Source: Adineta ricciae
Taxonomy: Eukaryota; Rotifera; Eurotatoria; Adinetida; Adinetidae
Reading direction: 5' to 3'
Assembly (NCBI GenBank): GCA_905250025.1
Contig: CAJNOJ010000002.1
Span: 744,001 to 808,000 of the forward strand
Length of the DNA: 64,000 bases
Shown here: in pieces, positions 31,314 through 33,215 of the stretch
Position numbering within the stretch: the stretch's first letter is position 1
How the letters are laid out: every line of letters begins with the position of its first letter
Notes under the pieces: model-generated
What the model saw: the letters and a program-made list of their open reading frames with translations, nothing else
Database searches by the model: none
What the model was told of the DNA's origin: nothing
Program-made: the position numbers and the translations under genes

Positions 31314-33215
31314 TCAGCCTCTTCGTCGTAATCGATGGCTACTAAGGATAACATTTTCATAGTCATTATCGTCGGATGATTCAGAAGAAACTGAAGTTTT
31401 GTTGACGGCTGATGCTTTCCCGCGACATTGTCGTTTCGTTTCACTTTCATCGCTTTGGTCGGAGCTCGATGAACTGATGGACGATATACTTCGCTTGCGA
31501 TCACATGACTAAATCCAGACAGATTTTCAACATGAAAATAGTTGACAGACTTAGTAAAGTTTTACCGAATTGGAATGAATCAATTTAACTGGTTTCTTGT
31601 TCGACGACTTAATCTTTGCTTTCTTCCGATTTGATAATGATGCTTTGAATTGTTGAAGTAGACCTGGACAATGCAGGTTTTCTTCAAGTTCCCACTAGAA
31701 TAAAAAAAAAAGAAGCCTGCCGTTTTCAACTGGAAATATTCTCTACCAATTCGTTGTCCTTACCGTGTTTTCTTTTTCGCTGTATCCTTTCCATTTCAGA
31801 AGATATTCCACGCGTCCGTTTCGAATCCGGTGATCAACGATTTTTTCCACTGTGTACATTTGTTCCCACAGATGTATCTTCTTCGACGCAGCTATTCGTT
31901 GACGGAACATCTTTTTGTAATTGTGACTTAGGTCAAACCCAAGATACGATCGTTTCAGATTTGCAGCTGCTAACAGAGTTGTACCAGAGCCTGCAAACGG
32001 ATCCAAAACTAAATCGCCTGAAACGAACCAGAAACAAATTCGTTTTTCGATTAACATTATCGCCATACCTTCATCTGTTGTGGCCAAAATACAAATTTCC
32101 GATAAAATTAATGGAAATGGTGCAGGATGTTTATTCTTTTTTTCAGGTGGTATTCGCCAGACTGAGCTTTTGAAACATTCTGGTAAACGATTACGGTAGA
32201 ATTTTGGCGTGCCCGATGAAGCTTTAGTCAACCAGAAGATTTTTTCGACGTTTGGGCGAAAATAAGCCGTATTTTGATTCACTGTTGAACCGCGATCCCA
32301 TATTATTGTTTGATACATCTTCAAATCACTTTTGGAGACGAAATCTTCAGGTCTATAATCCTGTCCGCAGTAACGTCGATCTTTGTGATTGTAAAATGCC
32401 GAACCATTTGGTTTGAGAACACGATTAATTTCATTGAGTATTTTCAATTGCCATTGTTGATATTCTTCCTCGTTCATGTTGTCATCGTACGTATCGTAGA
32501 TAATTTGTCCAAGGTACGGGCGACCTTCTCGAAGACCAAGTTTGTTATATGGCGGAGACGTGACGATACACTGGACGGAATTATTCGGTAACTTTTTCAA
32601 ACCTTCGAGAGAATCAACGACAATATATCTGTTTCTCCATGACTAAAAGACAGCGTAGAATGGCGTTTTGGAGACGCAATTAACATTCCATTACTTTGCT
32701 CTTTTTCTTGATAATCCTCTGTTTGTCTAATGATGGTTTGGTACGGTGTTCGTCCGGCTGTGAAGCAGGTAGTTGACTAGTTCTTTCACTAGTTATCGTT
32801 GTGTCCAACGAAGCCTTAAAAAAGTTATGTGGAGAATTTTGCCCTCAATGCACCAAAATGTTTGTATTGCATCAAGAGAAAGGAATACATGGAATTCTAT
32901 CACACATAAATCGTGTCACGTGCTTAGAATTTATTCATCATGATTTCTTTCGATTTGAATTCTATGTTCTAGTCTGCATCCCTAGATATCAACCGTCTGT
33001 CTGACAGCCATCGAAAACTCAACTACCCTCAATAGTATTTTCTCGTTATAGACTATGCGCAGATAACTTACTTCGTTCCGTACTACTATTCTAAATGAAC
33101 AGCAATATGTTGACAAGTCCTCACGAGTGCTTTTAGCACTATCCACGTTTTCGTCTTCATCATTCTCGGTGAGATCGATGACTTCAGATTGTTTCTCTTG
33201 AATTTCGTTACACAT
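31314..33215 (-). CDS. N4CMT: N4CMT: bacterial-type N4/N6 amino-DNA-methyltransferase fused to a chromodomain
   Basis: Putative nuclear DNA methyltransferase placing N4-methylcytosine in chromatin. Six exons (33072-33215, 32695-32814, 32069-32642, 31764-32017, 31566-31694, 31314-31508) join to 471 residues. The acidic N terminus contains [12 protein letters not shown], a canonical SUMO-interacting motif. A basic linker (RIIKKKSK) follows. The methyltransferase has catalytic TSPPYNKLG (SPPY at 117-120) before the SAM-binding DPFAGSGTT (285-293), the order of beta-class bacterial enzymes; SPPY suits exocyclic-amine methylation of cytosine. The chromodomain (about 334-380) starts [11 protein letters not shown], contains [14 protein letters not shown] and ends with [13 protein letters not shown]; an intron lies before the Trp. 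The tail is Ser/Asp-rich. Published bdelloid N4CMT has this architecture, believed acquired from bacteria. The start is the first ATG after a probable 5'-UTR intron. Confidence 0.93.

Follow-up and report, generated by a model that had tools for sequence, protein, structure and literature searches.

How did a methyltransferase of prokaryote type come to be joined to a chromodomain in a gene of the bdelloid rotifer Adineta ricciae, and is the gene what it appears to be? The system itself has been published as bdelloid N4CMT (PMC8885841), and what the present comparison adds concerns the origin of its two halves. The gene lies in the window analysed here (a 64,000-nucleotide stretch of contig C2), on the minus strand at 33215-31314, and encodes a protein of 471 aa in six exons separated by five introns (Table 1).

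Gene structure and conserved domains

A sequence-only reading of the window had placed at 31314..33215 a beta-order methyltransferase fused to a chromodomain, with five coding introns and no strand named, and both features are confirmed. The introns are 257, 52, 51, 69 and 57 nt long, all five with GT..AG borders, and occupy the same positions in a second A. ricciae copy on contig C5, which has the same six exons. The protein has the conserved domains PF01555 (N6_N4_Mtase; 139 bits, E-value: 2.7e-40) and PF00385 (Chromo; 69 bits, E-value: 3.6e-19), both far over the curated Pfam cut-offs. A third Pfam match, to PF01170, is weak, and Pfam found neither PF00145 (the C5-methyltransferase / chromomethylase domain) nor a chromoshadow domain in this protein. 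The motif SPPY (starting at residue 117) precedes the AdoMet motif DPFAGSGTT (residue 285), which is the permuted, or beta, order; MYTVEKI follows at residue 333 and KWKGY at residue 354. In HP1 cage numbering, Tyr334, Trp355 and Tyr358 match the aromatic cage.

Table 1. N4CMT and two other frames of the window (all positions refer to the window; the C5 copy is the second A. ricciae gene and P0001 a database protein)
Feature	Position	Strand	Residues and remarks
Exon 1	33072..33215	-	1-48; ATG at 33215; same exon in the C5 copy and P0001
Exon 2	32695..32814	-	49-88
Exon 3	32069..32642	-	89 to 280 (first base); catalytic part, SPPY at 32547-32558
Exon 4	31764..32017	-	280-364; DPFAGSGTT at 31977-32003; first 32 chromodomain residues; fusion junction inside
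Exon 5	31566..31694	-	365-407; remainder of chromodomain
Exon 6	31314..31508	-	408-471 and stop; serine-rich tail
PF01555 N6_N4_Mtase domain	31905..32576	-	111-317; contains intron 3 (32018-32068)
PF00385 chromodomain	31641..31856	-	334-382; contains intron 4
Intron 4	31695..31763	-	Phase 0, at the Thr/Trp boundary of the chromodomain (NT/W, the slash marking the intron)
Small-molecule-type methyltransferase frame	48012-48617	-	202 aa, uninterrupted; PF13847/PF08241; possible horizontal-transfer candidate
Metallo-beta-lactamase-fold frame	46064-47785	-	574 aa, intronless; PF00753

A single open frame of 299 aa (32642-31743) begins before SPPY and runs through DPFAGSGTT into the chromodomain with no stop. 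As this frame is continuous and the junction lies inside exon 4, the two halves cannot be transcribed entirely apart from each other, a possibility that had been raised beforehand and is thereby countered. Introns 3 and 4 agree with the read-through seen in metagenome relatives (intron 3 in P0011, P0013 and P0015; intron 4 in P0007 and P0011-P0015). The 51 nt of intron 3 are a multiple of three and hold no in-frame stop in the window copy, so that retention would insert 17 residues before the AdoMet motif. A TGA reported for the C5 copy falls inside intron 3, and the notion of a broken C5 copy was rejected for this reason. The description of the gene as complete and intact holds for gene content (471 aa, intact motifs) and at that level only.

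Given the prokaryotic or phage character of the methyltransferase, bacterial contamination or an assembly chimera might mimic a fusion gene of this kind. This explanation is refuted by the data and retains practically no probability. The gene has five introns, one of them within the chromodomain, the C5 contig bears a second copy with the same exons, and orthologues are present in several named bdelloids. The neighbours also agree with the earlier placement of the gene between animal genes: Pfam matches were obtained for 9 of the 10 window open reading frames scanned, including FCH (F-BAR), 7tm_1, homeodomain, M28 peptidase and DENN, and mark the surroundings as animal-type. Contamination and chimerism were thus rejected on the introns, the second copy and the neighbours.

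Relationship to bdelloid N4CMT

This gene is, with very little doubt, orthologous to bdelloid N4CMT and thus the A. ricciae version of a "histone-read, DNA-write" enzyme. Of 6308 homologues found, 120 were listed, and 14 of these have both Pfam domains; the closest protein among the 120 is P0001, from Adineta ricciae itself. For phylogenetic analysis, an alignment of 280 rows was thinned to 164. The first tree comprised 82 rows (15 bdelloid, 25 viral, 26 of 75 metagenome and 16 of 51 cellular) and the second 72 rows, which lacked six long or odd metagenome sequences (including P0021), three bdelloid and two cellular rows and had one additional viral row. The first tree took in 13 of the 14 two-domain homologues (P0008 was omitted, and for P0001 the identical model of the C5 copy was used), and these 13 form one clade with the window protein and A. 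vaga. Built with bdelloid N4CMT and microbial methyltransferases, as the earlier reading had proposed, the trees place the window protein with A. vaga and other bdelloids, apart from the microbial enzymes (support 96/97 in the 82-row tree and 100/100 in the 72-row tree). The methyltransferase domain is 78% identical to that of A. vaga. The best PDB match is 8s9n ("DNA cytosine-N4 methyltransferase"; 457 bits); the sequence aligned there is in agreement with P0010 of A. vaga, and the A. vaga enzyme has been solved as 8s9m/n/o. The chromodomain is most similar to CBX/HP1 chains in the PDB (e.g. Drosophila HP1 1kna over residues 331-384). The identification of this gene with the published fusion (PMC8885841), made in the sequence-only reading, is therefore correct.

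A. ricciae N4CMT shares with the A. vaga and other bdelloid proteins the domain order, SPPY, the number of introns (five), a C-terminal HP1-type chromodomain and the presence of two homologous copies. The A. vaga fusion is an allelic pair, and its five introns are conserved in bdelloids (PMC8885841). Plant chromomethylases (CMT3) resemble N4CMT in that the chromodomain reads H3K9 methylation and the enzyme writes DNA (PMC8885841), but they are C5-methyltransferases with an embedded chromodomain and belong to another family. HP1/CBX proteins likewise have a chromodomain with an aromatic cage; HP1, unlike N4CMT, carries a chromoshadow domain and lacks a methyltransferase. No primary report of the fusion other than PMC8885841 was found in the literature searched. 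The word "ricciae" is absent from the main text of that paper, N4CMT and 4mC are absent from the main text of PMC12460157, and N4CMT is absent from PMC7943196. A review treats bdelloid N4CMT as known and describes mass-spectrometry support for genomic 4mC as lacking (PMC11065753).

Several relatives have features of their own. The unnamed metagenome members of the N4CMT clade look like bdelloid genes read through their introns. P0014 (ENA metagenome, 312 aa) is the deepest branch inside the bdelloid clade in both trees, with weak support, and is perhaps from an unsampled bdelloid lineage. P0003, the N4CMT of Adineta steineri, has the AdoMet motif DIFAGSGTT in place of DPFAGSGTT. P0021 (JGI metagenome, 274 aa on a 2340-base contig) forms a long branch in the first tree, where the bdelloid clade is its sister group (99/89); it has TSPIYN where the others have TSPPYN and no chromodomain, and a viral scan with this protein returned three stretches and no relatives. 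P0018, P0019 and P0020 (metagenome, 397-425 aa) form one clade in the first tree (100/99) and consist of a methyltransferase followed by a second part which, by eye, looks like a worn repeat of the same fold; the viral scan with P0018 returned one relative, at 25%.

Predicted activity and genomic setting

The recombinant A. vaga enzyme produces 4mC in E. coli; in the rotifer 4mC sits on transposons and is linked to H3K9/27me3, Dnmt1/3 are absent and SETDB1 is amplified (PMC8885841). From this published work we infer that the A. ricciae protein would likewise have 4mC activity, be targeted to chromatin and serve in transposon silencing. That its product is something other than 4mC, the protein being a domesticated methyltransferase of the same fold that either produces 6mA or is inactive, is improbable. 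PF01555 members have switched repeatedly between 4mC and 6mA (PMC8885841), so the product is not fixed by sequence alone, and the weaker general profiles matched (NF008572 and NF050803, both far under their cut-offs) are adenine-specific. Nevertheless, SPPY, which is typical of N4C enzymes (PMC8885841), is retained in A. ricciae, 4mC is made by the closely similar A. vaga enzyme, and the methyltransferase is strongly constrained between the A. ricciae copies (see below).

The genome of A. ricciae was also searched exon by exon for PF00145. Four candidates were scored and one match was obtained, in a frame of 351 aa. This frame is presumably Dnmt2-like, given its CFT...EGTGS signature, and no Dnmt1 or Dnmt3 gene was detected among the four candidates. 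The genome contains six MBD matches, four of which are adjoined by Pre-SET (on C18, C24, C35 and C48), as expected of SETDB1-like genes.

Second copy and selection

A search of the 130-Mb genome with the PF01555 profile gave two matches, both candidates scored: the window gene and C5:990441-991106. No further PF01555 gene was found in this search. The C5 copy is intact (470 aa), its model is identical to P0001, and its DNA is 91% identical to the window copy over 2.7 kb including flanks. An alignment of the two proteins shows differences at 39 of its 471 columns, one of them a gap; for the A. vaga allozymes the published difference is six residues, in constructs that lack exon 1 (PMC8885841).

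The C5 copy is probably the homologous (allelic) partner of the window copy, judging by the arrangement of the two contigs. Landmarks on C2 and C5 are collinear, with the same order and strand: chromo (132/284 kb), chromoshadow (133/285 and 672/886 kb) and N4CMT (776/990 kb). The HP1-like pair on these contigs is 92.7% identical, and collinear homologues have been reported for A. ricciae (PMC5916493). This collinearity, together with 91% DNA identity where the ohnologues of A. vaga diverge by a median of 24.9% (PMC5916493), led to the rejection of ohnologue status. A counterpoint to allelism is that the 9% divergence exceeds the roughly 4% given as similar to A. ricciae (PMC5916493).

Between the two copies, dN/dS is 0.22 overall. 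It is lowest in the methyltransferase (0.077; 244 codons), followed by the chromodomain (0.18; 54 codons with 7 nt differences) and exons 1-2 (0.33), and reaches 1.16 in the C-terminal tail (84 codons with 20 nt differences). The methyltransferase is under purifying selection, and no constraint is seen between the copies in the C-terminal tail.

Origin of the methyltransferase

The clustering of N4CMT with phage methyltransferases has been noted previously (PMC8885841); the large-phage relatives and the identity figures are added here. Among the 120 homologues listed, the nearest proteins with no chromodomain are P0016 (52% identity) and P0017 (51%). Viral contigs L014-L020 encode proteins with 51-53% identity to the methyltransferase (best 80 of 431 matches); L014 also has phage genes of primase and polymerase type, and a polymerase is encoded on L017. 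In a phage collection, 1176 records match, and the best (52.7%) is an uncultured phage of 735,411 bases present as two records, LR756501 and LR756503, whose gene shares 82% identity with the L014 gene. A 735-kb phage, which we infer to be LR756501, belongs to a clade predicted to infect Bacteroidetes (PMC7162821). The large-phage methyltransferases (L014-L020, LR756501) resemble N4CMT in being permuted and in aligning at this level over nearly the whole domain, and the SPPYNKLGL of N4CMT is common to many of them. They differ from it in having no chromodomain and no introns.

A phage donor of the methyltransferase is favoured, though not shown, by these comparisons. The main alternative, that the methyltransferase came from a bacterial chromosome and that the phage likeness reflects poor sampling or shared ancestry, falls only a little short of probable. 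The title of the published work suggests such a donor (PMC8885841). In an AU test, bdelloids and cellular rows as one clade were not rejected (p 0.238), nor were bdelloids grouped with another viral clade (p 0.273). Cellular sampling is thin (the best 80 of 141 matches were kept, with 14-16 in the trees), bootstraps in the trees are unsettled, and the host of many metagenome relatives is unknown. On the other side, identity to bacterial and archaeal genomes is at most 44% among the matches kept, as against 53% for the best viral match in a parallel scan. Averaged over 15 bdelloid sequences, identity is at best 0.516 in 30 viral rows and 0.418 in 51 cellular rows (medians 0.469 and 0.388). In both trees the cellular rows form a single group (100/100) on a long branch, while the bdelloids fall among viral and metagenome rows, beside the L014 group (91/78 and 88/80, under the starred level).

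The description of the enzyme as bacterial-type and acquired thus stands insofar as the methyltransferase is of prokaryote/phage type; as to the donor, "bacterial" may be imprecise, since the closest relatives with a known source are encoded by phages and not by bacterial chromosomes.

Origin of the chromodomain

All 27 Chromo matches of the genome were examined for intron position. Besides the N4CMT copies, the exact NT/W phase 0 intron occurs in four loci, which are two pairs (C32/C159 and C2:132 kb/C5:284 kb); three of these loci show both splice sites, and the C32 copy the donor site only. A chromoshadow match lies 0.8-1.0 kb downstream in all four, which indicates that these loci are HP1-like. 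In six other loci (two on C26 and one each on C22, C6, C43 and C47), the intron is one codon later (NTW/), as seen from the donor site or a translated insert. Six metagenome N4CMT frames (P0007, P0011-P0015) exit the chromodomain at the same Thr, which argues that the NT/W site is old in the fusion. Intron gain or one-codon sliding may instead account for the shared site.

Sequence identity did not identify a donor. The 11 candidate chromodomains aligned, from a total of 24 other loci with a chromodomain, have mean identities of 0.48-0.53 to six bdelloid N4CMT chromodomains. The choice of a donor by identity was rejected, as there is no clear winner and the highest candidate, from C26 (0.53), has its intron one codon later. 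The junction lies in exon 4, with no intron there, so the two halves were not brought together by plain exon shuffling at that point. A further collinear pair, C2:672139 and C5:885894, consists of chromoshadow matches with no nearby Chromo match.

Proposed model and significance

Taken together, the comparisons hint at two sources: a large-phage lineage for the catalytic half and an HP1 gene of the rotifer for the chromatin-reading half. A tentative and more specific version, which we regard as possible but on the doubtful side, is that a methyltransferase from a large-phage lineage was joined, within what is now exon 4, to a resident HP1-like chromodomain, that the NT/W intron was carried along, and that the C32/C159 and C2/C5 pairs are the living kin of the donor.

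The following scheme is envisaged for N4CMT action. Through its HP1-type chromodomain the protein would dock on silenced transposons marked by trimethylated H3K9/K27. Its permuted beta-class methyltransferase, with AdoMet as methyl donor, would then methylate a nearby cytosine at the N4 amino group. The resulting 4mC may be read by SETDB1-like histone methyltransferases, which would renew H3K9me3.

N4CMT is the published case of a prokaryote-type mark, 4mC, adopted as an epigenetic mark in an animal. A. ricciae retains two intact and rather divergent versions of the enzyme, in which the methyltransferase is constrained and the tail is free. Should the leads to a phage donor and an HP1 intron be borne out, each half of the fusion would be traceable to a concrete source, and a path by which a phage gene entered animal epigenetics would become testable.
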